A model generated the notes under the pieces. The model had not been told where the DNA came from, did not search any database, and saw only the letters and a list, made by a program, of their open reading frames with translations. Shown here piece after piece: positions 15,519 to 27,520 of a DNA stretch of 64,000 nucleotides. This stretch comes from Desulfovibrio sp. Fe33 (GTDB lineage: Bacteria; Desulfobacterota; Desulfovibrionia; Desulfovibrionales; Desulfovibrionaceae), in assembly GCF_028532725.1 (NCBI RefSeq), contig NZ_JAQKGU010000007.1:124001-188000 (forward strand), in the 5' to 3' direction. Within the stretch, counting starts at the first letter, position 1. The number at the start of each line of letters is the position of its first letter. A program made the translations under genes and the position numbers.

Positions 15519-15995
15519 TTGCAAAACAGATATTTCACGATTTCCGTTGTCGTTGCGCTCCTGTTTGCGGGCGCTGTGGCCGGGTACGCCATACCGGCGG
15601 GAAAAACGGGGGCGACCTCCCGGCTTATTCTGGACAACACCGGCGGCCGGGTCATTTTCACGCACGAGGTCCATGCCGGTGAGTACGGTCTGGATTGCGG
15701 GGATTGTCACCACGACGGCGTCGAGGGCCAGGGATACCGGCCGTGCGGAGCCTGCCATCCGGCAGAGTTCGACGAAGGGTTCCGCGTCGGCCATGCCAAG
15801 GCGTTTCCCGGTCGGGAGGCCTGTCCTCGATGCCACGGCGATCAGCCTGACGGTCAGCCTTTCCCCGGCCGGGTGCCGGACATGTCCTCCCTTCCCGCCA
15901 GGGGTGAGGCCTTCCATGCCCAATGCCGGGGGTGTCATGAGGCCAACGGCGGTCCCTTTGATGAAGACACCTGCTATCAGTGCCACGCGAGGTGA
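15519..15995 (+). CDS. Pentaheme c-type cytochrome leading the rnf operon
   Basis: The 158-residue protein has an N-terminal signal or anchor helix (YFTISVVVALLFAGAVAGYA) and five CxxCH heme-binding motifs: CGDCH, CGACH, CPRCH, CRGCH and CYQCH. Several extra His residues (for example FTHEVHAG) could be the sixth ligands. Spacing resembles cytochrome c3/c7-type folds. It is exported to the periplasm and would exchange electrons with the membrane-bound Rnf complex, as proposed for other sulfate reducers where a multiheme cytochrome opens the rnf operon. It appears to start with TTG at 15519, with ACGGGGA eight bases before. The stop is four bases from rnfC. Some desulfovibrio relatives have larger cytochromes here. 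Confidence 0.85.
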   Translation: MQNRYFTISVVVALLFAGAVAGYAIPAGKTGATSRLILDNTGGRVIFTHEVHAGEYGLDCGDCHHDGVEGQGYRPCGACHPAEFDEGFRVGHAKAFPGREACPRCHGDQPDGQPFPGRVPDMSSLPARGEAFHAQCRGCHEANGGPFDEDTCYQCHAR

Positions 15996-15998
15996 TCC

Positions 15999-17144
15999 AT
16001 GCTCAAGATTCGCTATCCTCTTGATTCCCAGCTCGCCAATTCCATCCGGGAAATGACGCCTCCGAAGGAACTGCATGTCAATGTGCGCAATCTCGTCCTG
16101 AAGGTCGGGAAGGGCGCCGAGCTGCGCAAGGGCGACATCGTCGCCGAGCATCCTTCAAAGGGCGTCGGCGCGTTTCATGCGTCGGCCTGCGGCAAGGTCT
16201 CGGGCGTAAATTATCACAGCCTGACCGTGAAATGCTCGGGCAAGGCGGAGACCGTCGATCCGGTGAACGTGGAAACCATGGGCAAGGGCTTGGAGCTCAT
16301 GCGTGCCTTGCAGGGGCTTGGCGTGAACGTGGCTCAGTTCGAGAGTGACGTCGATGTCCTGGTGGTCAACGGTCAGAATCCGGAACCCGGCATTTCCGTG
16401 GCCCAGCAGATTTTGCGCGACGGCCGCGAGGAGCTCCGCGCAGGGCTGGACATGGCGCGAAGGCTGCTTTCTCCGGGCCGGACCGTGCTGGCCGTGCCCA
16501 AGGGCGAGGAAACAACCATTCCCGGCGCGGAGACCGTGGGGGTCAAGGCGAAGTATCCTTACTCCCTGGACGCCTTGGTGGTTCGGGCCATCACCGGCAA
16601 GGAGTTTCCCGAGGGCGTACGGGCGATCAGCGTCATGGATCTGTACGATCTCGGCAGGGTGGTCCAGACCGGGCTGCCCATCACCGAGACCCTCATGAGC
16701 ATAGCCGGTCATAACTACCGGGTGCCCATCGGCACGCCCGTCGGGCATATCCTGAACGCCCTGAGCATGGCCGTGTTTCCAGGCGACATCGCCGTGTTGG
16801 GCGGGCCGTTTCGCGGCGAGGCCATCTACAGCCTGGACCAGGGAGTGAAGAAGGGCGACCACGGCCTGTTCGTCACCTCTTCGGACGCCATTCCGGCGGT
16901 GCAGGATGCGGCGTGCATCAACTGCGGCGAGTGCGTCCTGCAATGCCCGGCCAGAATCCAGCCGCATCTCATCAGCCGTTGCGCCGAATATGAGCGGTTC
17001 GATGAGGCCGTGCGGTACGGCCTGAACAGTTGTTTCGAGTGCGGTCTGTGCGCCTTCAACTGCTTCGCCAGGCGTCCGTTGCTCCAGTACATCCGTTTCG
17101 CAAAGGCGCAGATCCTGGCCAAGGGACGCGATGCACGGTCTTAG
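15999..17144 (+). CDS. rnfC: RnfC subunit, lacking the usual NADH/FMN motifs
   Basis: The 381-residue protein keeps RnfC architecture: a barrel-sandwich N-terminal part (GAFHASACGKVSGV), a Rossmann-like middle and two ferredoxin-type clusters near the C-terminus (CINCGECVLQC and CFECGLCAFNC). It also keeps GTPVGHILN and VLGGPFRGEA. However, the segment that is GxGGAGFPT in ordinary RnfC reads LQGLGVNVAQFESDVD here, the AECEPY segment reads NGQNPEPGIS, and the YPSGG segment reads YPYSLD. These are the motifs that hold NADH and FMN, so direct NADH oxidation by this RnfC looks unlikely. It is also shorter than typical RnfC (over 430 residues). GAGGTGATCC precedes the ATG. Confidence 0.9.
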   Translation: MLKIRYPLDSQLANSIREMTPPKELHVNVRNLVLKVGKGAELRKGDIVAEHPSKGVGAFHASACGKVSGVNYHSLTVKCSGKAETVDPVNVETMGKGLELMRALQGLGVNVAQFESDVDVLVVNGQNPEPGISVAQQILRDGREELRAGLDMARRLLSPGRTVLAVPKGEETTIPGAETVGVKAKYPYSLDALVVRAITGKEFPEGVRAISVMDLYDLGRVVQTGLPITETLMSIAGHNYRVPIGTPVGHILNALSMAVFPGDIAVLGGPFRGEAIYSLDQGVKKGDHGLFVTSSDAIPAVQDAACINCGECVLQCPARIQPHLISRCAEYERFDEAVRYGLNSCFECGLCAFNCFARRPLLQYIRFAKAQILAKGRDARS

Positions 17145-17192
17145 CCGGTCCCATAGCCGGGAATGATGTTCGATCAAACAAGGAAGAAGCGC

Positions 17193-18164
17193 ATGAATCC
17201 TCCCATACTCAAAGCGATGTCCGACATCTCTCTCAGGCTGACGGTTTCGCCGCCGCCCCATTGGCGGAGCGGGCGGACAATTCAGGGCATGATGCAGGCC
17301 CATCTGCTGGCCCTGACGCCTGCCGCCGTCATGGCGGTGTTCATGTATGGCTGGCGGGCGATGTCCGTGGTGGGCATGGCTGGAACCGCCGCCGTGCTCA
17401 CCGAGGTGGCGTGCCTGCGTCTCCAGAAGCGGGATGTGGACGTGGACAATTATTCGGCCCTGTACGCCGGAGTGTTGTTCGCTTTCCTGCTCCCTGTCAC
17501 TGCGCCCTGGTGGCTGGCGGCCATTGGCGGCGCGTTGACCATAGCGCTGGGCCGGGCCGTGTTCGGCGGGTTCGGATGCAATCCGGTCTGCGCCCCGCTG
17601 GTGGCATGGGCCGTGTGCCGGTTCTCCTGGCCCGAGGCCATGGACATCGACCTGAACCTGGCGAGCTTCACGCTCAACAGCCCGGTGGACCAGCTCATGT
17701 ATTTCGGGGTCGGCAGTCTCGGCCAGTTCGACTATATGGACCTGTTCATGGGACGCCAACTCGGCGGGCTCGGCTCTTCTCAGGTCGCGGCCGTGGCCGC
17801 GGGCGGACTCTTTCTGCTCGCCGCCCGCTGGATTCGCCTGTTCATCCCGTTCGGCTTCCTCGCCGGGGTTGCAGGCACGGCGGCAGTCTATTGGCTGATC
17901 GATCCCACGGTTTACGCCGACCCCATATTCCATTTGCTGGCGGGCAGCACCGTGTTCGGAGCGTTCTTCCTGGCCACGGACACCGCGTCCAGCCCGGTGG
18001 GCAAGATTCCGCAGACCGTATTCGGGCTTATCGCCGGAGCGATGGTCGTGGTCATCCGCGCGCACGGGGTATACCCCGACGGCGTGCCTTTCGCCGTCAT
18101 GGTGGCGAATCTGCTCAGCCCGCTGTTGGAACGTCTTCGCCCCAAATACTTCGGAGTGAGATAA
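17193..18164 (+). CDS. rnfD: RnfD membrane subunit
   Basis: The 323-residue protein begins MNPPILKAMSDISLRLTVSPPPHWRSG and has about nine to ten membrane helices, the pattern of RnfD/NqrB. The ATG at 17193 follows AAGGAAG; a start 30 bases earlier is possible but lacks a ribosome site. RnfD normally carries FMN covalently linked to the Thr of an SGAT motif by the enzyme ApbE. Here the site reads LLAGSTVFGAFF, with Thr about residue 253 kept but the neighbours changed to AGST. It forms part of the ion- and electron-moving membrane core. Confidence 0.9.
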   Translation: MNPPILKAMSDISLRLTVSPPPHWRSGRTIQGMMQAHLLALTPAAVMAVFMYGWRAMSVVGMAGTAAVLTEVACLRLQKRDVDVDNYSALYAGVLFAFLLPVTAPWWLAAIGGALTIALGRAVFGGFGCNPVCAPLVAWAVCRFSWPEAMDIDLNLASFTLNSPVDQLMYFGVGSLGQFDYMDLFMGRQLGGLGSSQVAAVAAGGLFLLAARWIRLFIPFGFLAGVAGTAAVYWLIDPTVYADPIFHLLAGSTVFGAFFLATDTASSPVGKIPQTVFGLIAGAMVVVIRAHGVYPDGVPFAVMVANLLSPLLERLRPKYFGVR

Positions 18165-18166
18165 TC

Positions 18167-18736
18167 ATGCGTGAAATAGTCAATATGATCGTGGTCTTGT
18201 CGCTCATCTGCGCCGCCTCGGGCACCCTGCTGGTCAATTTGAAGCGGGCCACCCGGGAGCGGATCGAGCAGCAGGTTCTCGTCAATGTCCAGGGACCGGC
18301 CCTGATGGCGGTGCTCGAAGGGTGCGACAACGATCCAATCGCCGAACGGCGGACCGTGGGCGGCGTCACGGTGTTTCCGGCAAGACGCGACGGGAGGCTG
18401 GTGGGCGTGGCCTTCGAGACCTTCGCTCCCGGATATTCCGGGGACATCGGGGTAATGACCGGTTTCGACCTGGGCGCGGACCGACTCATCGGCATCGGCG
18501 TCACCACCCAGACCGAAACCCCCGGAGTGGGCACCAGGATCATGAAGCCCGCCTTTCTCAAGCAGTTCAAGGGCCACGGGCTCGACGCCATGGCCCTGAG
18601 TTCGAAGAGCGGCGACATCGACGCCGTGGCCGGGGCGACCTTCTCGTCTTCCGGCGCGGTGGACGCAGTGCGCAAGGCTCTGGACGTCTATAGGGACATC
18701 AAGCCTCAAATCGCCGACCTCTGGCCGGCGTCCTAA
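18167..18736 (+). CDS. rnfG: RnfG flavoprotein subunit
   Basis: The 189-residue protein has one N-terminal membrane helix (NMIVVLSLICAASGTLLVNL) and a periplasmic FMN-binding domain with FAPGYSGDIGVMTGFD and TETPGVGTRI. The covalent-FMN motif, usually D-x-x-S/T-G-A-T, reads DAVAGAT with Thr at about residue 158, so the Ser/Thr is replaced by Ala. It should pass electrons across the membrane to or from the other Rnf subunits and the periplasmic cytochrome. The ATG at 18167 comes two bases after the rnfD stop (TAATCATG). No apbE gene is present in the window. Confidence 0.9.
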   Translation: MREIVNMIVVLSLICAASGTLLVNLKRATRERIEQQVLVNVQGPALMAVLEGCDNDPIAERRTVGGVTVFPARRDGRLVGVAFETFAPGYSGDIGVMTGFDLGADRLIGIGVTTQTETPGVGTRIMKPAFLKQFKGHGLDAMALSSKSGDIDAVAGATFSSSGAVDAVRKALDVYRDIKPQIADLWPAS

Positions 18737-18746
18737 GGAGCGAGAC

Positions 18747-19436
18747 ATGAGTTCCATCAGGAAGGAATTTCTCAAGGGGCTGTGGGACGAATTGCCGCCG
18801 TTTCGGGTGGTGCTCGGGCTGTGCCCCACGCTGGCCGTGACCTCCACGGCGGAGAACGGCTTCGGCATGGGCGTGGCGGTGCTTTTCGTCCTGACCCTGT
18901 CCAACGCCATCATCTCGGCCATGCGAAAAATCATTCCGGGCAAGGTGCGCATCGCCTGCTTCATCGTCATCGCGGCATCCCTGGTGGTGGCCGTGGAGCT
19001 GCTCATGCAGGCGTACACCTACTCCCTGTATCAAAAACTGGGCATCTTCGTGCCGCTCATCGTGGTCAACTGCATCATCCTGGGCCGGGCGGAGGCGTTC
19101 GCATCGAAGAATCCGGTGCTGCCGTCCATCGCCGACGGGCTGGGCATGGGCCTGGGATTCACCCTGTCCCTGACCATTCTCGGCGCGTTGCGCGAAGGGC
19201 TCGGCAACGGCACGGTTTTCGGCCTCCCGGTGGTTTGGGAAACGTTCAGGCCTGCGCATTTCCTGGTCATGGCTCCGGGCGCGTTCGTTTGCCTGGGGGT
19301 GATCCTGGCGGGCATGAACGCCCTCAACCGCCATCTGAGCCGCCGAAAGGGCGAGCCCGCCGCCGAACCGCAGAATGCGGCCTGCGCCTCCTGTGCGTCG
19401 TGCAACCTCTGCATAACGGCCAAGAGGGAGGAGTAG
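18747..19436 (+). CDS. rnfE: RnfE membrane subunit with cysteine-rich tail
   Basis: The 229-residue protein has about six membrane helices, with GLCPTLAVT and NCIILGRAEAFAS typical of RnfE/NqrD, whose conserved Cys residues bind an iron-sulfur centre inside the membrane together with RnfA. After the last helix a tail of about 35 residues ends in ACASCASCNLCITAKREE, giving four Cys at 213, 216, 219 and 222 with CxxCxxCxxC spacing. I do not know this tail from standard RnfE. It could hold an extra metal centre (inference). AAGGAG precedes the ATG. Confidence 0.92.
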   Translation: MSSIRKEFLKGLWDELPPFRVVLGLCPTLAVTSTAENGFGMGVAVLFVLTLSNAIISAMRKIIPGKVRIACFIVIAASLVVAVELLMQAYTYSLYQKLGIFVPLIVVNCIILGRAEAFASKNPVLPSIADGLGMGLGFTLSLTILGALREGLGNGTVFGLPVVWETFRPAHFLVMAPGAFVCLGVILAGMNALNRHLSRRKGEPAAEPQNAACASCASCNLCITAKREE

Positions 19437-19439
19437 CTC

Positions 19440-20015
19440 ATGGAATACTTCATGCTGTTCATCTCGGCCATTTTCATCAACAACATCGTTCTGGTCCAAT
19501 ATCTCGGCACCTGTCCGTTCATGGGCACCTCCAAGTCCACGGACGTGGCCTTCGGCATGGGCGCTGCGGTCATCTTCGTCATGCTCATGGCCACGGCGTT
19601 CACCTGGCCGCTGCAACGGTACGTGTTGACTCCCTTCGGCATCGGATATCTCCAGACCATCGTCTTCATTTTGGTCATCGCTTCCCTGGTTCAGTTCGTG
19701 GAGATGTTCCTGAAAAAGGTCGTGCCGCCGCTGCACGCCTCCCTCGGGCTGTTCCTGCCACTGATAACCACCAACTGCGCGGTCATGGGTGTGGCCATCA
19801 TGGTTCAGCGCAACCAGTATTCATTCGTCAAGGCAATGGCTTTTTCCCTCGCTTCGGGGATCGGTTTCCTCATCGCCTTGATAATCGTCTCCGCCATCCG
19901 GGAGCGGCTGGATCTCTCTCCGGTTCCGGTCGTCTTCCGCGGCATTCCGGTGGCGCTCGTCACGGCGGGAGTCATGTCCCTGGTCTTCCTCGCCTTTCAG
20001 GGCATGGCCGCATAA
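19440..20015 (+). CDS. rnfA: RnfA membrane subunit
   Basis: The 191-residue protein is a close fit to RnfA/NqrE in length and sequence: NNIVLVQYLGTCPFMGTS near the start, LFLPLITTNCAVMGVAIM in the middle, and about six membrane helices. The Cys in each of these motifs is the one that holds the membrane-buried iron-sulfur centre shared with RnfE. The gene starts three bases after the rnfE stop behind a GGAGGAG ribosome site. No unusual features. Confidence 0.95.
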   Translation: MEYFMLFISAIFINNIVLVQYLGTCPFMGTSKSTDVAFGMGAAVIFVMLMATAFTWPLQRYVLTPFGIGYLQTIVFILVIASLVQFVEMFLKKVVPPLHASLGLFLPLITTNCAVMGVAIMVQRNQYSFVKAMAFSLASGIGFLIALIIVSAIRERLDLSPVPVVFRGIPVALVTAGVMSLVFLAFQGMAA

Positions 20016-20039
20016 CCGAACAAGCACAAGGACACGATT

Positions 20040-22154
20040 ATGGTAGCCTCATCCATACTGGTTCTGTTCTTCCTGGGGTTTTCGGCCGCATCCATTCTGG
20101 CCGTCGCTTCCCGCATCCTCCGCGTGGAGGAGGACCCTCGCGTTGCCCGGGTGGAAGCCTGCCTTCCCGGGGCCAACTGCGGCGGGTGCGGCTATCCCGG
20201 GTGTTCCGCCGCAGCCGCCGCGATAGTCAGCGGCCAGGCCCCGCCCGAGGTTTGCGTGGCGGGCAACCAGGAGACTTCGGCTCGCATCGCCGCGATCATC
20301 GGTTCCGAGGTGAGTTTCAAGGAGCCCAAGGTCGCCACGAACATCTGTAGCGGAGGCTCCCGGGCCAATCTGCTTTTCGACTATAAGGGCGTGGAGGACT
20401 GCCGCGCCGAGGCTCTGCTCTACGGCGGCGAAAAATCGTGCGGCCTCGGCTGCATCGGGCTGGGCACCTGCGTCAAGGTTTGCGGGTTCAACGCCATCCG
20501 CCTGAGCGGGGCGGGGCTTCCCGTTGTGGACTGGAACGCCTGCCGGTCCTGCGGCAAGTGCGCCGAGGCGTGCCCCACCGGGGCCATCCGTATATCCAGC
20601 GTGACCAGCGTACTGCTTCACCTCAACCAGACCGACGACTGCCTCGCTCCGTGTATGCAGAAGTGCCCGGCCCAGATCAACGTGCGCCGTTTCATTCAGC
20701 AGCTCAGGCAGGGCGACATGCGCGGCGCGCTCATGACCATCAAGGAACATAACCCGCTGCCCCTGTTGGTGGGGCGCATCTGTCCGGCTCCGTGCGAGAA
20801 CATCTGCCGCCGCAAGATCGTGGACGAAGGCGTGGCCATCCACACTCTTCAGCGGTTTGCGGCGGATTGGGAAATGCGGTCCGGCATTCGCGTGCCATTG
20901 TTTTGCAATCCTCCGAGCGGCCATAGGGTGGCCATCATAGGAAGTGGTCCGGCAGGGCTTTCCTGCGCCTATTTCCTGCGCCGCGTGGGGCATGAACCGG
21001 TCATTTTCGAGAAGCGGGCCCACATAGGCGGCATGATGCGCGGCGTCATCCCCGAATACCGTCTGCCCAAAAAGGTGGTGGATTGGGAGGTCCAGACCAT
21101 TCTCAATCTCGGGGTGGAAGCCCGTACCAATGTGGCCTTCGGACGCGACGTGACCCTCGCCGACCTCGAAAGGGAAGGATTCGAAGCGGTCTTCATCGCC
21201 ACCGGGGCGTGGAAGGTGCCGCCGCTCGGCATCGAGAACGACAATGCGCAAGGCGTGTTGGACGCGGTCTCTTTCCTATACGGCGTGGGGCGCGAATACA
21301 CCGACCTTCGCGGAAAGAGAGTGGTGGTCGTGGGCGGCAGCAACACCGCCATGGACGTCGCCCGGTCCGCCGCCCGTCTGGGAGCCGAAGTCGTGGCGCT
21401 GGTGCCGAGCATCCAGCGCAAGATGTCCGCCAACAAGGATGAGGTTCTGCGTGCCCTGGAGATCGGCGCGGATCTTCGCTACCTGACCGCGCCGCTCGGC
21501 ATCGAGGCGGAGAACGGAACCGTTCGGGGCGTGAAATACTGTGATCTGGCCTATGACGACCCGGAAAAGGCCAAGGGCGATCCGAAGCCCGTGGCAGGAA
21601 CCGCAATGTTTGTCGCGGCCGATCTGGTCGTTGCGGCCATGGACCGCGTGGTGGACGACAGCCTTTTGCGCGATGCGGAAGGCAAGCCTTTATTCAAGAT
21701 GGACAGGAAGACGGGCGGGATCAGCGCGAACCCAACCACGTTGCAAACCGACATCCCCAACGTGTTCGTGGGTGGAGAGGCCCACACGGGTCGCAACATC
21801 ATGATCCAGGCGGTGTCCGACGGACGCCGCGCAGCCCGCGCCATTCACTTCCATGTGACTCGGGGGACCGTGCCGGAACCGGACAATCAGCAGGTCCAGG
21901 TCATCCCGGAAACGATCCTCAAGGACATGCGTGTGACCTATTCCATACCCAGGGTGCAGATCCCCCTGATCGGCATGGACGAGCGCAGGCATACCTTCAG
22001 GGAGGAAGTGGCCGGTTCCATCACCTATGAGGCGGCCAGAAAGGAGGCCAGCCGCTGCCTGCGATGCGGATTGACCTGCTATGACGCCGACGCCGGGGCC
22101 GAGTACACCCTGGATGACGACGTCAAGCTGATCTGCGCTTCGGGCGGGGAGTAG
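20040..22154 (+). CDS. rnfB: RnfB fused to a GltD-like FAD/NAD(P)H oxidoreductase
   Basis: At 704 residues this is more than twice the usual RnfB. Residues 1-25 are a membrane anchor. CLPGANCGGCGYPGC (41-55) is the RnfB-specific cluster. CGLGCIGLGTCVKVC and CRSCGKCAEACP hold two ferredoxin-type clusters. From about residue 195 a second protein begins that resembles the glutamate synthase small subunit and NfnB: CMQKCPAQINVRRF, CPAPCENICRR, an FAD fold with GSGPAGLSC near 302, a nucleotide fold with VVVVGGSNTAMDVA near 430, and a C-terminal FAD segment VFVGGEAHTGRN. It ends with a CLRCGLTC cluster. The fused part should bind FAD and NADH or NADPH and feed electrons into or out of the RnfB clusters. 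NAD versus NADP preference cannot be told by eye. Confidence 0.93.
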   Translation: MVASSILVLFFLGFSAASILAVASRILRVEEDPRVARVEACLPGANCGGCGYPGCSAAAAAIVSGQAPPEVCVAGNQETSARIAAIIGSEVSFKEPKVATNICSGGSRANLLFDYKGVEDCRAEALLYGGEKSCGLGCIGLGTCVKVCGFNAIRLSGAGLPVVDWNACRSCGKCAEACPTGAIRISSVTSVLLHLNQTDDCLAPCMQKCPAQINVRRFIQQLRQGDMRGALMTIKEHNPLPLLVGRICPAPCENICRRKIVDEGVAIHTLQRFAADWEMRSGIRVPLFCNPPSGHRVAIIGSGPAGLSCAYFLRRVGHEPVIFEKRAHIGGMMRGVIPEYRLPKKVVDWEVQTILNLGVEARTNVAFGRDVTLADLEREGFEAVFIATGAWKVPPLGIENDNAQGVLDAVSFLYGVGREYTDLRGKRVVVVGGSNTAMDVARSAARLGAEVVALVPSIQRKMSANKDEVLRALEIGADLRYLTAPLGIEAENGTVRGVKYCDLAYDDPEKAKGDPKPVAGTAMFVAADLVVAAMDRVVDDSLLRDAEGKPLFKMDRKTGGISANPTTLQTDIPNVFVGGEAHTGRNIMIQAVSDGRRAARAIHFHVTRGTVPEPDNQQVQVIPETILKDMRVTYSIPRVQIPLIGMDERRHTFREEVAGSITYEAARKEASRCLRCGLTCYDADAGAEYTLDDDVKLICASGGE

Positions 22155-22337: not shown

Positions 22338-23192
22338 CTAATTTGCCGGTTTGAGGCCCATGATGAAGTAGGCCAACTGGGCGGAGGCGAAATCAGATGC
22401 GTGATCGCCGTCCGCGGGGGCCAGCTCAACGACGTCGGCGCCGATGAGAGTCCTGTCCCGTACGGCTGCTTCGAGGAGCGACAGGGCCTCATGCCATCCG
22501 ACGCCTCCCGGAACCGGAGTGCCGGTGGCCCGGATGACCGATGGGTCCAGTCCGTCCACATCGAATGTGATGTAGATTCGATCCGGGAAATCGGTAGGCA
22601 GAAGGTGTTTGGGGATGCCTTTCAAAAACAGCTCGCGCGCGTCGAGATGGGGGATGTCGTTGGTCCGCCTGTATTCCACCTCTTCCGTACACAGGGCGCG
22701 GACGCCGATCTGGAAGAGGCTCAGGCCGAGGTCGTCGGCGGCGCGGCGCATGACACATGCGTGGCTGTAGAGCGAGCCTTCGTAGGAATTCCGGAGGTCG
22801 GCGTGGGCGTCGAACTGGACTATGCCGAACTTCCTGTATTTTTGTTTCAATGCCCGGAGCGCGCCGAGTGTCACGGTGTGTTCGCCACCGAGGACCAAGG
22901 GCATCGCCTCGCATTCCATGGCGAATGTGACGGCGTCCTCGATTCGGTCGAGGGTCTTGGAAATATTGCCCGAGCAGTCCACGGGCTCCGCTGTGTGGAT
23001 ACCGTCCTTCGCGGGCACGGATTTGCCGTCCCACAGTTCCAGTTGCGTGGACGCCTCCATAATGGCGGCCGGGCCTTTGGCGGTCCCGCCGCCGTATGAG
23101 ACGGACGACTCAAGGGGAACCGGAATGACGTGGAAAGCGGCCTCTTCCGGCCGTGCGTTGTCGATTTCGCCTTCGAGAAAGTGCGAAGCCAT
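22338..23192 (-). CDS. speB: Agmatinase (ureohydrolase family)
   Basis: The 284-residue protein has all ureohydrolase signatures: GGEHTVTLG, the metal-binding FDAHADLRNSYEG followed by SHACVMRRA, and ITFDVDGLDPSVIRATGTPVPGG with the Asp pair. These bind two Mn ions that hydrolyse agmatine to putrescine and urea. GGAGG lies before the ATG at 23192. The gene is the last of four on the minus strand that begin with arginine decarboxylase, which makes agmatinase a better call than arginase or guanidinobutyrase. Ten bases separate it from the decarboxylase gene upstream. Confidence 0.92.
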   Translation of the reverse strand: MASHFLEGEIDNARPEEAAFHVIPVPLESSVSYGGGTAKGPAAIMEASTQLELWDGKSVPAKDGIHTAEPVDCSGNISKTLDRIEDAVTFAMECEAMPLVLGGEHTVTLGALRALKQKYRKFGIVQFDAHADLRNSYEGSLYSHACVMRRAADDLGLSLFQIGVRALCTEEVEYRRTNDIPHLDARELFLKGIPKHLLPTDFPDRIYITFDVDGLDPSVIRATGTPVPGGVGWHEALSLLEAAVRDRTLIGADVVELAPADGDHASDFASAQLAYFIMGLKPAN

Positions 23193-23202
23193 GGCGTCCT
23201 CC

Positions 23203-24372
23203 CTAGGAAAGCCGGTTTTTGAAGTCCTCGTAGCCGAATGAGCGGACTAGAGTCATTGCATCCGAATCGGGCTTGAAAAGATACATGGACGGCAATTGAA
23301 TGCCGTTGAAGGTGTTCGTCTTGACCATGGAATAGATGGCCATGTCGGTGAAAACCAGACGGTCGCCGGTTCGTACCGGGTGGTCGAACGAGTATTCCCC
23401 GGCCACGTCGCCGGTCAGGCAGGAAGGGCCGCCGATCCGGCAAGTCCATGCCTTTTCCTCGACCTCGCCGGAACCGACGATATGCGGGCGGTAGGGCATT
23501 TCGATGACGTCGGGCATATGGCACGGCACGGCGGAATCCATTATCGCCACGGGCATGTCGGCCTGCACGACATCAAGGACTTCCGCGACGAGATACCCGG
23601 CGTTGAGCGCCACGGCCTCGCCCGGTTCCAGGTAGACCTCGACGTTCCATTTCTTCTTGAAACGGGTAATGAGGCTGACCAGCAGGTCTACGTCATAGCC
23701 GGGGCGGGTGATATGGTGCCCGCCGCCGAAGTTGACGTACTTCATGCGCGGCAGCACGTCGGAGAAATTCCGTTCCACGGCTTCTATGGTCCTTTCCAGG
23801 CAGTCGGCGTCCTGTTCGCACAGATTGTGCCAGTGCAGGCCCGTGATGCCGTCGAGGCTGTCCGCGTCGAACTGCGCCCGGCGGATGCCCAGCCTTGAGC
23901 CGGGAGAGCAGGGGTCATAAATGGGGGTGGCCCCTTCGGAGTGCTCGGGGTTGATGCGCAGGGCGAGCTCGATATTGCGTCCGGCGGCTTCGGCCAGCTC
24001 CCGCACCAGCGGACGGAAACGATCGAGCTGGGCAAAGGAGTTGAACACTATGTGGTCGCTCGTTTCGCACAGGTCCCGAATGTCCGCCTCGGAATATCCG
24101 GCTGCAAACGTGTGCACCTCGCGTCCGAACTCTTCCCGCCCCAGCCGCGCCTCGTGGGGCGAACTGGCGCAGATGCCGTCCAGTGTTTCCGCCAGCAGGG
24201 GGAACACGGCGTGCATGGCGAAGCACTTCAGCGCGAGCAGCACTTTGCAGCCCGCCCGGTCCCTGACAGAGGCGAGGACCTCCAGATTCTCTTTCAGGAG
24301 GCCCTCGTCGATGACATAGGATGGTGTCGCGACCCGCTTGGGGTCGAAACGGTATTCCAGGCGGCCGTTCAC
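23203..24372 (-). CDS. nspC: Carboxynorspermidine/carboxyspermidine decarboxylase
   Basis: The 389-residue protein is an alanine-racemase-fold PLP decarboxylase. The PLP lysine is in VLLALKCFAMH near residue 40, the glycine-rich phosphate loop is YVNFGGGHH, and YLEPGEAVALNAG and the DSAVPCHMPDV segment near the C-terminus carry active-site residues. It removes CO2 from carboxyspermidine or carboxynorspermidine to give the free polyamine. The GTG start at 24372 overlaps the stop of the dehydrogenase gene by one base (TAGTG) and has GGAG upstream, so the two are translationally coupled; a longer in-frame reading runs back into that gene and is not used. Confidence 0.92.
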   Translation of the reverse strand: MNGRLEYRFDPKRVATPSYVIDEGLLKENLEVLASVRDRAGCKVLLALKCFAMHAVFPLLAETLDGICASSPHEARLGREEFGREVHTFAAGYSEADIRDLCETSDHIVFNSFAQLDRFRPLVRELAEAAGRNIELALRINPEHSEGATPIYDPCSPGSRLGIRRAQFDADSLDGITGLHWHNLCEQDADCLERTIEAVERNFSDVLPRMKYVNFGGGHHITRPGYDVDLLVSLITRFKKKWNVEVYLEPGEAVALNAGYLVAEVLDVVQADMPVAIMDSAVPCHMPDVIEMPYRPHIVGSGEVEEKAWTCRIGGPSCLTGDVAGEYSFDHPVRTGDRLVFTDMAIYSMVKTNTFNGIQLPSMYLFKPDSDAMTLVRSFGYEDFKNRLS

Positions 24373-25562
24373 TACAGCTCCACTTCCTGCCAGGGCAGGC
24401 CGTGCTTGTTCAGGGCAGTCATGAACGGATCGGGATCGAATTGTTCCATGTGGAAGACGCCTTCGCCGGACCATTTGCCGGTGAGCATCATCATGGCGCC
24501 GATCATGGCCGGGACGCCTGTGGTGTAGGAGATGGCCTGGGAGCCGACTTCCTCGTAGGCGGCTTCGTGGGAGCAGATGTTGTAGACGTACAGCTGCTTT
24601 TCCTTGCCGTCCTTGACGCCCTTCATGACGTTGCCGATGCAGGTGCGTCCCTTGGTCAGAGGGCCGAGGGAGCCGGGCTCGGGCAGGACCGCCTTGAGGA
24701 ATTGAAGCGGCTGGATCATCTGGCCGTTGTACTCGACGGGTTCGATGGAAGTCATGCCGATGCCCTCCAGCACGCGCAGATGGTTGAGATAGGCGTCGCC
24801 GAAGGTCATCCAGAAACGGGCGCGTTTGAGGCCCTTGATGTGCATGACCAGGGATTCCAGCTCTTCATGGTACATGAGGTAGCATTTCTTTTGGCCGATG
24901 CCTTCAGGAAAGTCGTAGCTCATGGACCAGGACAGGGGATCGGTTTCGACCCATTCGCCGCGCTCCCAGTACCGGCCGCGCTGGGTGATCTCGCGGATGT
25001 TGATTTCCGGGTTGAAGTTGGTGGCGAACGCCTGCCCGTGATCGCCCGCATTGCAGTCGATGATGTCGAGCACGTGGATTTCGTCGAAGTGGTGCTTCAT
25101 GGCGTGGGCCGCGAACACGTTGGTGACGCCCGGATCGAATCCGGAGCCGAGCAGGGCCATGAGGCCCGCTTCCTTGAAGCGGTCCTGGTACGCCCACTGC
25201 CATTTGTATTCGAATTTGGCTTCGCTCGGCGGCTCGTAGTTGGCCGTGTCGAGGTAGTTGACGCCGGTTTCAAGACACGCGTCCATGAGCGTCAGGTCCT
25301 GGTAGGGCAGGGCCAGGTTCACCAGCAGGTCCGGTTTGATCCTGTTGATGAGCTCCACGGTTTCGGCCACGTTGTCCGCATCGACCTGGTAAGTGGGGAC
25401 GTCGACTCCGGTGCGCTTCCTGACCGATTCGGCAATGGCGTCGCACTTGGACTTGGTACGGCTGGCGAGGTGGATTTCGCTGAACACCTCGGGAACCTGG
25501 GCACACTTGTGCACCGCCACGCTGCCGACGCCTCCGGCGCCGATGATCAGAACCTTGGACAT
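24372..25562 (-). CDS. Carboxynorspermidine/carboxyspermidine dehydrogenase (saccharopine dehydrogenase-like)
   Basis: The 396-residue protein starts MSKVLIIGAGGVGSVAVHKC, an NAD(P) Rossmann loop, and contains LLVNLALPYQDLTLMDACLETGVNYLDTANYE and GFDPGVTNVFAAHA, which are hallmarks of the saccharopine-dehydrogenase-like carboxynorspermidine synthase. It joins aspartate semialdehyde to putrescine (or diaminopropane) by NADPH-dependent reduction. With putrescine supplied by the flanking speA and speB genes, carboxyspermidine is the expected product. The gene is translationally coupled to the decarboxylase that follows. Confidence 0.92.
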   Translation of the reverse strand: MSKVLIIGAGGVGSVAVHKCAQVPEVFSEIHLASRTKSKCDAIAESVRKRTGVDVPTYQVDADNVAETVELINRIKPDLLVNLALPYQDLTLMDACLETGVNYLDTANYEPPSEAKFEYKWQWAYQDRFKEAGLMALLGSGFDPGVTNVFAAHAMKHHFDEIHVLDIIDCNAGDHGQAFATNFNPEINIREITQRGRYWERGEWVETDPLSWSMSYDFPEGIGQKKCYLMYHEELESLVMHIKGLKRARFWMTFGDAYLNHLRVLEGIGMTSIEPVEYNGQMIQPLQFLKAVLPEPGSLGPLTKGRTCIGNVMKGVKDGKEKQLYVYNICSHEAAYEEVGSQAISYTTGVPAMIGAMMMLTGKWSGEGVFHMEQFDPDPFMTALNKHGLPWQEVEL

Positions 25563-25606
25563 AGTCGTATCCTCGTAGAACGCTCCCCGCGGAGCGGTAA
25601 GAATTT

Positions 25607-27520
25607 CTATCTTTCGAAGTAAGTGTAGCCCTGCAGGCCGTTCTTGTAGGCCTGGAGGATATCCCGTCGCTGAATAGGCGTTATCTGGCCGTGTTGAACG
25701 GCTGTTTCCGCTGTCTTGCGGAAGCGCCTGAGGAGGGCTTTGGTGTCGTATTCCACATAGGAGAGGATATCCTCCACCGTGTCGCCCTCGAGCTCGCTGA
25801 CAAAAACGAACTCGCCGTTGTCACGAATCCTGACGGTGACGATATTGGTGTCGCCGAGCAGGTTGTGCAGATCACCGAGCGTTTCCTGGTATGCTCCCAC
25901 AAGGAAGGCGCCGAGGTAGTATTCCTCGGAGTCCTTCAACTCATGCAGAGGCATGGTCCGTTTGACGCCCTGGCTGTCGATGAATCGGTCTATTTTTCCG
26001 TCGCAGTCGCAGGTGATGTCGGCCAGCAATCCTTCACGTGTCGGCGCTTCGTTGAGACGATGCACCGGCATGAGGGGGAAGAGCTGCCCAATGGCCCAGG
26101 AGTCGGGAAGGGATTGGAATACGCTGAAGTTGCAGTAGTAGATATCGGACAGGGCCTGGGTGATGCCTTCCAACTCGTGCGGGAGCGAAGGCATTTCCTT
26201 GGCGAACTTGGCGATGCGGTGGATGGTCTCCCAGAAGACGCTGTCTCCGAGGGCGCGCTCGCGGAATGAGAGCTTGCCTTGGGAGAAGGCCTGCCGCACC
26301 TGGTCGCGGTAGTAGAGGATGTCGTTGAAGCTTTCCTGGACGTTGCGCAGGTTCAGCGTTTCCAACGTGTCATAGAGATGCTGGATGTGGATGCTGGTCC
26401 CTTCGGGCAGCTTCTCGGGAAGCGCTTCCGGTTCGAAACGGGCGGTATCCAGCACGTTGAACAGCAGCATGGAGTAGTAGGCGACCAGCGCCCGGCCCGA
26501 TTCGGTGATGATGGTCGGGTGGGCGATGCTCTGCTCGTCGAGCACGGTCATGACGCCTTCCACCACGTCCACGCAGTATTCGTCCACCGAGTAGTTGCGG
26601 CTGCTCATGAAGTTCGTCTGGGTGCCGTCGTAATCGACGGCCAGACCGCCGCCGAGGTCCAGGTAGCGCATACCCGCCCCCTCGGCCACGAGCCCCGCAT
26701 ACACGCGGGCGGCTTCGGCCACGGCGGTGCGGATTTCACGGATGTTCGGAATCTGGGAACCGAGATGATAGTGGAGCAGTTGGAGACTGCCCAGCATATC
26801 TTCTTCCTTGAGGGTGTCGATGACGTCGATGATTTGAGCGGCATTGAGGCCGAAGATGGAGCGGTCTCCGCCGGATTCGGCCCATAGACCGTTGGCCTGG
26901 GCCGACAGCTTTACGCGCACGCCCAGAATCGGCTCGACGCCCAGCGCCCTGGACCGCTCGATGACGAGCGGCAGTTCGCCCGGCATTTCGATGACCAGGA
27001 CGCATTTGAAGCCAAGCTGCGTGGCATGAAGGCCAAGGTCGATGTATTCCTCGTCCTTATAGCCGTTGCACACGAGAACCGCATCGGGGTCGCGGAGCAT
27101 CCCCATTGCGGCGATCAGTTCGGCCTTGCTGCCCGCCTCAAGCCCGTGATGGTATTTTTTGCCGTGACGGGTCACGGCCTCCACCACTTGTTGTTGCTGG
27201 TTGACCTTGATGGGGTAAGCGCCAAGATACGAGCCCCGATAACTGAGGCTGTTGATGGCCGCTTGGAAACTGTTGTTGAGCAGGGAAATCTGGGTTCCGA
27301 GGATGTTCTCGATGCGCAGGAGCACGGGCATATCCAAGCCGCGTTCCTGCACCCCTTCGATAATCTCGGGAATACTTACCGCGTTGGCAAAATTGCCTGG
27401 CTCCGCGGTTACCTGTAATTCGCCTGATTGGGAAATGCCGAAAAAGCCGGCACCCCATTCACGGACGCCATAGAGTTCCGTGGACCGTTCAGTGGTCCAT
27501 CTTTCCAGGGTAGGGGTCAC
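25607..27520 (-). CDS. speA: Biosynthetic arginine decarboxylase
   Basis: The 637-residue length and sequence fit the biosynthetic, PLP-dependent arginine decarboxylase. It has the PLP lysine segment GAYPIKVNQQQQVV, the family motifs GLEAGSKAEL and LLHYHLGSQIPN, the YLDLGGGLAVDYDG phosphate loop, and TCDCDGKIDRFID near the C-terminus. It converts arginine to agmatine, the first step of this operon. The GTG start at 27520 follows GGAGG by eight bases. An ATG four bases upstream is in another frame and stops quickly. It is the promoter-proximal gene of the four-gene polyamine operon. Confidence 0.95.
   Translation of the reverse strand: MTPTLERWTTERSTELYGVREWGAGFFGISQSGELQVTAEPGNFANAVSIPEIIEGVQERGLDMPVLLRIENILGTQISLLNNSFQAAINSLSYRGSYLGAYPIKVNQQQQVVEAVTRHGKKYHHGLEAGSKAELIAAMGMLRDPDAVLVCNGYKDEEYIDLGLHATQLGFKCVLVIEMPGELPLVIERSRALGVEPILGVRVKLSAQANGLWAESGGDRSIFGLNAAQIIDVIDTLKEEDMLGSLQLLHYHLGSQIPNIREIRTAVAEAARVYAGLVAEGAGMRYLDLGGGLAVDYDGTQTNFMSSRNYSVDEYCVDVVEGVMTVLDEQSIAHPTIITESGRALVAYYSMLLFNVLDTARFEPEALPEKLPEGTSIHIQHLYDTLETLNLRNVQESFNDILYYRDQVRQAFSQGKLSFRERALGDSVFWETIHRIAKFAKEMPSLPHELEGITQALSDIYYCNFSVFQSLPDSWAIGQLFPLMPVHRLNEAPTREGLLADITCDCDGKIDRFIDSQGVKRTMPLHELKDSEEYYLGAFLVGAYQETLGDLHNLLGDTNIVTVRIRDNGEFVFVSELEGDTVEDILSYVEYDTKALLRRFRKTAETAVQHGQITPIQRRDILQAYKNGLQGYTYFER

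Follow-up and report, generated by a model that had tools for sequence, protein, structure and literature searches.

A possibly cytochrome-linked Rnf complex in Desulfovibrio sp. Fe33 with altered RnfC, RnfD and RnfB subunits

Background

The energy-conserving Rnf complex of sulfate reducers is usually drawn as a ferredoxin:NAD (nicotinamide adenine dinucleotide) pump; in the published pathway electrons run from the flavin mononucleotide (FMN) of RnfG to the FMN of RnfD, then to riboflavin, to the clusters of RnfC and finally to NAD. The stretch analysed here, "the window", is 64,000 nucleotides of the Desulfovibrio sp. Fe33 genome (contig NZ_JAQKGU010000007.1, positions 124,001 to 188,000), and it carries at positions 15519–22154 of the forward strand a seven-gene rnf operon composed of a pentaheme cytochrome gene, rnfC, rnfD, rnfG, rnfE, rnfA and rnfB, all six classical Rnf subunit genes (rnfABCDGE) being in one operon. 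We give about an even chance to the view that this operon encodes a cytochrome-linked Rnf which exchanges electrons with the operon's own periplasmic multiheme cytochrome and has a re-specified flavin module on RnfB.

The general architecture, a larger RnfB with NAD sites beside an RnfC without them, is already published: it was described for Desulfobacula toluolica and Desulfococcus multivorans, with the mode of action awaiting verification (PMC5109826). The D. toluolica-type complex (Rnf2 of D. multivorans) resembles that of the window in its RnfB of about 700 amino acids (aa), its RnfC without NADH/soluble ligand-binding domains and the cytochrome in its gene cluster (PMC5109826); it differs, as described there, in that NAD-binding sites are reported for its RnfB, whereas glycine 434 and the YRR motif are replaced in the window protein (below). 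In Desulfovibrio alaskensis the rnfCDGEABF genes with dhcA have the same gene order and an upstream multiheme cytochrome (PMC4841214), but that cytochrome is a decaheme protein and the operon includes an apbE-like rnfF, which has no counterpart directly beside the window operon. There rnf is reported to be required when substrate-level phosphorylation is not available, an rnfA mutant had a lower proton-motive force, and vesicle experiments on ferredoxin to NAD transfer were unsuccessful (PMC4215793, PMC4841214). A link between Desulfovibrio Rnf and the cytochrome c pool is an earlier hypothesis, cited in PMC4287179.

The Methanosarcina acetivorans complex is described as co-transcribed with a multiheme cytochrome (MmcA), as not interacting with NAD(P), as modelled with RnfG passing electrons to cytochrome c, and as having the RnfD motif SGTF (PMC4023990). 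It shares with the window a multiheme cytochrome gene accompanying rnfCDGEAB, in the window directly upstream of rnfC, and differs in being archaeal, methanophenazine-linked and supplied with an extra subunit, MA0665; a fused RnfB is not mentioned in the accessible parts of PMC4023990 and PMC6703419. Two-subunit Nqr/Rnf-like complexes resemble the window in having an RnfD homologue without the flavinylation site, and one-way outward electron flow has been proposed for them; unlike the window complex they consist of just two subunits, and the RnfD-like one carries a fused PF00175 NAD domain (PMC11334425).

The RnfC, RnfD and other small subunits

The initial annotation of the window, made from its sequence alone, held that RnfC (381 aa) keeps both ferredoxin clusters and lacks the segments that hold NADH and FMN in ordinary RnfC, and alignment with E. 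coli RsxC bears this out. The reference segments in RsxC are GLGGAGFPTGVK, NAAECEPYITADD and YPSGGAKQL; the first corresponds to a gap in the window protein, the second to NGQNPEPGISVAQ and the third to YPYSLDALV, so that NPEPG replaces ECEPY and YPYSL replaces YPSGG, and all eight cysteines of the two 4Fe-4S clusters are retained. A structural model (mean predicted local distance difference test score, pLDDT, 78.5; predicted template modelling score 0.80) matches 8ahx_C with Z 30.2 (330 residues aligned, 3.7 Å) and NqrA 8acw_A with Z 23.7. On these comparisons the protein is a true RnfC that has apparently lost its FMN/NADH site, and it is probably still an electron-conducting or structural subunit.

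The wider comparison used loci picked by hand from database matches, not at random, each search yielding its best 30 loci at most; 109 chosen loci were tabulated, 100 of them with an RnfC, and 15 more were added. The tables exclude L039, a distant Rnf-like locus in a Bacillales assembly, and L040–L041, which gave GltD-like matches and nothing else. Duplicates are present (L020/L121 and L021/L125 are the same records), and the 35 sequences of the clade that contains the window represent 33 distinct ones. With the FMN loop scored as absent when fewer than 6 of 12 residues match E. coli, neither that loop nor ECEP was found in any of the 100 loci with an RnfC (the partial L025 frame, which begins late, does not extend to these positions). 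Both are present in E. coli and in all seven classical operons used as a positive control, and the third segment, YPxGG/A, is present in only three of these seven. Among the aligned RnfC proteins only that of L024, whose frame ends early, does not show all eight cluster cysteines. The TIGR01945 family model does not detect the motif loss, since the RnfC proteins of L173–L177 and L179 score above its cut-off though they have no FMN/NADH motifs; at these loci RnfB is short and the stretch contains no cytochrome gene.

The threonine of RnfD that carries FMN is T153 (Clostridium tetanomorphum) or T156 in solved complexes and, by alignment, T187 in E. coli. Threonine occupies this column in E. coli and all seven classical operons but in just one of 88 cytochrome-bearing loci, and in none of L276–L280, three of which have a cytochrome. 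In the window clade with fused RnfB (n = 35) the column holds S in 13, E in 7, A in 7, Y in 4, D in 3 and T in 1. Alignments to the A. woodii and C. tetanomorphum proteins differ in register near this threonine, and in either register no window threonine lies opposite; the nearby motifs AT[PAFL] or GA[TS] occur in E. coli, the seven classical operons and only one other locus. This apparent loss in cytochrome-bearing loci is a new observation: in the accessible portions of the open-licence literature we found no report of it in sulfate reducers, nor of the altered loop of the window RnfB clade. The flavinylation motif GAT of RnfG is kept in the window and in all aligned loci (one GAS excepted). 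RnfA and RnfE likewise retain their cluster cysteines, both in the window and in all 21 further non-classical loci used for comparison.

The RnfB fusion and its nucleotide loop

Residues 6–184 of the window RnfB match 9eri_B, and this N-terminal part is RnfB. The fused NfnB/GltD-like module that follows contains the Fer4_20 cysteines, a flavin adenine dinucleotide (FAD) loop GxGxxG, a second Rossmann domain and a C-terminal CLRCG. Its phmmer matches include 9bov_A (4.3e-101), 9n5u_A, StnC 8oh5_C and NfnL 5jca_L, and a model of the whole protein gives Z 32.3 to 9bov_A, 30.9 to StnC 8oh5_C and 29.7 to NfnL 5jfc_L. The model is weak across the cluster domains (mean pLDDT 59) and serves here as a fold match, not as a source of ligand geometry. 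Among solved structures the nearest relatives are the large subunits of NfnABC/Stn complexes, which, unlike the window protein, have YRR at the clamp position and belong to assemblies with HydBC-like subunits (PMC10482914).

The 704-aa length, the fused module and the FAD loop had been recognized correctly in the initial annotation; its intact nucleotide loop did not survive comparison, as residues 432–437 read GGSNTA and 455–457 read VPS. At these positions 45 of the 48 fused RnfB proteins outside the window clade have GGGN[TV]A and YRR, including the sister proteins of two other operons of the same genome (C11 and C12), which have a complete NADP signature. We take the YRR arginines to be those that hold the 2'-phosphate of NADPH. 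The 83 fused RnfB sequences were divided by the presence of YRR, so that the YRR difference between the groups exists by construction; the remaining differences are as follows. All 35 window-clade members have S or T at 434, R460, K461, R536, E580 and R585, and all 45 YRR sequences (26 decaheme-type and 19 further) have G434, E461, G535, Q536 and D580. Relative to the YRR form, the clade thus has Lys for E461, Arg for Q536 (of AIGQ), Glu for D580 (of GGD) and Arg for P/A585 without exception, and Asp for G535 in 33 of 35. The YRR form is also that of all 29 best RnfB matches of the phylum search (L180–L208, partly the same genes). L225–L227, without YRR but with G434, and L281–L283, also without YRR, indicate that the standard nucleotide site was lost more than once.

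Other parts of the module are unchanged throughout the window clade: all 35 sequences retain nine cysteines, R341 and, in the FAD loop, glycines 301, 303 and 306. R341 is the equivalent of NfnB R201 and StnC R239, the arginine near N5 of FAD, as counted by hand from the module alignment and the residue numbering in PMC10482914. The glutamate ligand of the NfnB proximal cluster, mapped through StnC K170, corresponds to Gln271 in the window; this column holds H in 22, Q in 6, E in 6 and L in 1 of the 35 clade members; in the 48 fused proteins outside the clade it is Lys. Against five orthologues the ratio of nonsynonymous to synonymous substitution rates (dN/dS) is 0.07–0.15 for the module and 0.14–0.32 for its nucleotide subdomain. 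With new invariant residues, confinement to one clade and low dN/dS, the nucleotide site looks re-specified under constraint and not decaying. Since the dinucleotide glycine is replaced and the YRR clamp is gone in the entire clade, it is doubtful that the window RnfB has a NAD(P)H site of the NfnB type, contrary to what had been proposed at first.

Several RnfB-like proteins at other loci differ from the operon-encoded type. Those of L225 (385–4458), L226 and L282 (7647–9473) are RnfB-GltD-like, and their nucleotide loop is degenerate. The L225 gene has as its neighbour a NuoF-like open reading frame (ORF) with GRGGAGFP, and no rnfC, rnfD or rnfG lies in the stretch; in L282 a similar NuoF-like ORF adjoins a complete operon. 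Proteins of about 600 aa in L150 and L205–L208 match RnfB only from residue 78–100 on; they have no RnfB membrane helix, and their nucleotide loop is intact.

Co-occurrence and phylogeny

With thresholds of E ≤ 1e-120 for fused RnfB and E ≤ 1e-15 for RnfC homologues, 62 of the 247 genomes of the order have a fused RnfB and 138 an RnfC homologue; a fused RnfB was found in 41 of the 345 genomes of the phylum. Genomes with RnfC and without fused RnfB have a short RnfB in all 14 operons read that include rnfB in the stretch (L100–L113), the apparent lengths of 464 and 737 aa in L110 and L112 being rejected as over-extended frames. Where a fused RnfB and an RnfC lie at the same locus, RnfC is motif-less in 77 of 77 cases (74 + 3 loci); a full-motif RnfC beside a fused RnfB was thus seen at none. 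The seven best TIGR01945 matches in 20 genomes with fused RnfB are full-motif RnfC proteins encoded in separate operons, and the full-motif operons have a short RnfB in 7/7 and no cytochrome that could be found.

In this sample the fusion implies a motif-less RnfC and the reverse does not hold: 20 loci pair a motif-less RnfC with a short RnfB (the stretch includes a cytochrome at 14 of them and none at the other 6), which shows that the loss of the RnfC site did not need the fusion. No further GltD-like gene lies in the stretch at these loci, which counts against the earlier claim that the nucleotide reaction "moved" to RnfB and disposes of a split module in short-RnfB operons. Simultaneous origin of the fusion and the motif loss was likewise rejected, given the short RnfB and motif-less RnfC of L173–L177 and L179. 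Heme number as a predictor of loop state fails outside the order, where L211, L212 and L218 combine a pentaheme cytochrome with an intact loop. Within the window clade a 5-heme cytochrome gene is present at 34 of 35 loci, and in the other, L023, the sequence ends 145 bases upstream of rnfC.

Nine fused-RnfB loci have no RnfC in the stretch, with the loop intact in seven and altered in two; rnfC, rnfD and rnfG are absent from the stretches on both sides of L210, L213–L217, L225 and L226, and from the single stretch covered for L150. L276, L277 and L279 have rnfCDGEA without rnfB in the stretch and a fused RnfB elsewhere in the same genomes. The proteins concerned, of L216, L214 and L217, are intact RnfB-GltD fusions encoded away from any rnf operon; a 4–5-heme cytochrome was found at two of the three rnfCDGEA loci.

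In a tree of concatenated RnfD, RnfE, RnfA and RnfG (36 loci) the window clade is monophyletic with support 0.986 (0.975 under an alternative model); the module tree likewise unites its 35 sequences, with support 1.0 and a long stem. Since the subunit tree places the short-RnfB cytochrome group in the midst of fused lineages (group support 0.995, placement 0.865), this group has probably lost the module.

Possible electron routes

The lost RnfC flavin site and RnfD FMN threonine, together with the cytochrome gene next door, suggest that electrons no longer make the U-turn and are instead exchanged between RnfG and the cytochrome. Reduced ferredoxin would donate electrons to RnfB, perhaps alongside another donor acting through the fused flavin module; the electrons would pass the cluster of RnfA/E, powering the ion pump, and reach, on the periplasmic side, the FMN carried by RnfG. 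There the multiheme cytochrome and the pool of cytochrome c3 could take them up, or the flow could run in the opposite direction, inwards; in place of the usual turn back to NAD, the path would bypass RnfD and RnfC. The stricter proposal of a pump without a working pyridine-nucleotide site on any subunit, namely a ferredoxin:cytochrome c oxidoreductase in which the flavin sites of RnfC and RnfD are lost and the acquired NfnB-type flavoprotein on RnfB is re-specified, we hold tentatively and at somewhat below an even chance; R460-K461, R536 and R585 would then mark a changed RnfB site for another ligand or redox partner. If the RnfC NADH site, the covalent FMN of RnfD and the standard NAD(P)H site of RnfB are all lacking, the reaction usually drawn is wrong for this clade; the complex would be a bacterial counterpart of the cytochrome-linked Rnf of Methanosarcina and an example of a U-shaped electron path turned one-way.

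Several observations weigh against exchange at RnfG. The retained cluster cysteines of RnfC suggest that electrons still reach that subunit. RnfD could hold FMN non-covalently; the Thr position is occupied by Ser in the window and 12 other clade members, and the RnfD sequence in this region is rich in indels. Motif-less operons with no cytochrome in the stretch have the RnfD threonine in three of six cases with a short RnfB and three of five with an intact fused RnfB, from which it follows that the changes did not all occur together. The cytochromes themselves have been dispensable in published growth tests (PMC4215793, PMC4841214, PMC6703419): dhcA largely so in D. alaskensis (PMC4215793, PMC4841214), and deletion of mmcA had no substantial effect on growth of M. 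acetivorans on acetate (PMC6703419).

The strict conservation of the RnfC cysteines, the retained RnfC fold and the dispensability of dhcA in D. alaskensis G20 would all fit a complex that keeps the U-turn through RnfG, the riboflavin of RnfD and the clusters of RnfC, and in which electrons leave RnfC to a soluble carrier other than a nucleotide, the cytochrome being accessory; the D. multivorans paper also states that RnfC needs an acceptor or donor other than NAD (PMC5109826). We regard this route as rather unlikely, as electrons in the published pathway go from RnfG to riboflavin by way of the RnfD FMN, the threonine of which is gone in 87 of the 88 cytochrome-bearing loci. It is less probable still, and on the whole improbable, that NADH or NADPH is oxidized or reduced at the RnfB module without bifurcation, an arrangement that would resemble NQR in having the nucleotide on the input side. 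The NfnB/GltD-like fold, the FAD-loop glycines and the nine cysteines are compatible with such a reaction, and relocation of the NAD site is plausible for the decaheme sister operons C11 and C12, which keep the full NADP signature; the window clade, however, has Ser/Thr for the dinucleotide glycine, no YRR, Arg for the AIGQ glutamine and Glu for the GGD aspartate in 35 of 35 members.

The initial annotation had gone further and proposed that flavin-based bifurcation within Rnf might occur; inside RnfB it would run from NAD(P)H to ferredoxin and the membrane chain. Relatives of the module do belong to bifurcating complexes (9bov, 8oh5), the NfnB R201 equivalent R341 is invariant in the clade, and six of its 35 members, the window not among them, have Glu at the NfnB ligand position. 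Yet bifurcation is reported to be lost from the StnC module even though it has the same arginine (PMC10482914), so that geometry alone is insufficient; a Pfam search found no NfnA-like product among the seven operon genes, and the window has Gln at the ligand position and an altered nucleotide loop. Bifurcation is therefore unsupported and, in our judgement, very improbable. We give slightly less credence even than this to a module that is a decaying relic with a structural role only; the canonical nucleotide residues are lost and the short-RnfB sister group has no module, but the dN/dS of 0.07–0.15, the new invariant residues in 33 distinct sequences and the conserved cysteines and FAD-loop glycines speak against it. 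From the initial interpretation, then, an RnfC without the usual means of holding FMN and NADH and a flavin/nucleotide-type module on RnfB are kept, and relocation, NAD(P)H binding and bifurcation find no support. Under the preferred exchange with the cytochrome, the module, altered in a concerted and conserved way and probably without NfnB-style NAD(P)H binding, is best understood as a flavin/Fe-S part of changed specificity that serves for input or docking, and as neither a relocated NAD site nor a bifurcating one.

Operon features and neighbouring genes

The gene coordinates and sizes first assigned to the window operon are correct (Table 1), and the cytochrome gene had gone unmentioned. 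This first gene of the operon has a TTG start and an N-terminal hydrophobic segment in its product, and ends 3 bases before rnfC.

Table 1. Features of the rnf operon in the window
Feature	Position	Strand	Basis or remarks
Pentaheme c-type cytochrome, 158 aa	15519..15995	+	Pfam Cytochrom_CIII 1.3e-11; 5 CxxCH, 10 His
rnfC, 381 aa	15999..17144	+	TIGR01945 158.8 bits vs cut-off 245.95; motif comparison; model match 8ahx_C
Gap at FMN loop (GxGGAGFPT) of RnfC, residues 100–118, approximate	16296..16352	+	Alignments
rnfD, 333 aa counted from first ATG	17163..18164	+	PF03116 8.3e-85; TIGR01946 above cut-off
RnfD residue 173, Ser (context NSP), at FMN-threonine position of classical RnfD	17679..17681	+	Alignments
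rnfG, FMN-binding domain	18167..18736	+	PF04205 1.5e-14
rnfE	18747..19436	+	TIGR01948 above cut-off; cluster cysteines retained
rnfA	19440..20015	+	TIGR01943 above cut-off; cluster cysteines retained
rnfB-GltD fusion, 704 aa	20040..22154	+	Pfam, NCBIfam, phmmer, structural model
NfnB/GltD-like module of RnfB, residues 196–690	20625..22109	+	Pfam Fer4_20, Pyr_redox_2; phmmer
Rewritten nucleotide loop, RnfB residues 430–468	21327..21443	+	G434 to Ser/Thr; YRR lost; R460-K461 invariant

The 3.46-Mb genome has four such operons, that of the window (C7) and those of C8 (L017), C11 (L018) and C12 (L019), and in every one RnfC is motif-less and RnfB is a fusion of about 700 aa. Their first gene encodes a 158-aa cytochrome with 5 CxxCH in C7 and C8 and a 246–254-aa cytochrome with 10 CxxCH in C11 and C12. 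The gene apbE lies directly 3' of the C8 operon; judged by eye, other genes lie 3' of the remaining three. The C11 operon is followed by a 756-aa ORF with 7 CxxCH motifs (L018, 2306–4576), and the C12 operon adjoins genes for fumarase, malic enzyme and a PF00939 symporter, which may point to C4-acid use. In the window itself, translations read by eye 3' of the operon (22338–27520, reverse strand) resemble agmatinase, carboxynorspermidine decarboxylase, carboxynorspermidine dehydrogenase and arginine decarboxylase, which would make up a cluster for the spermidine pathway with no relation to Rnf.

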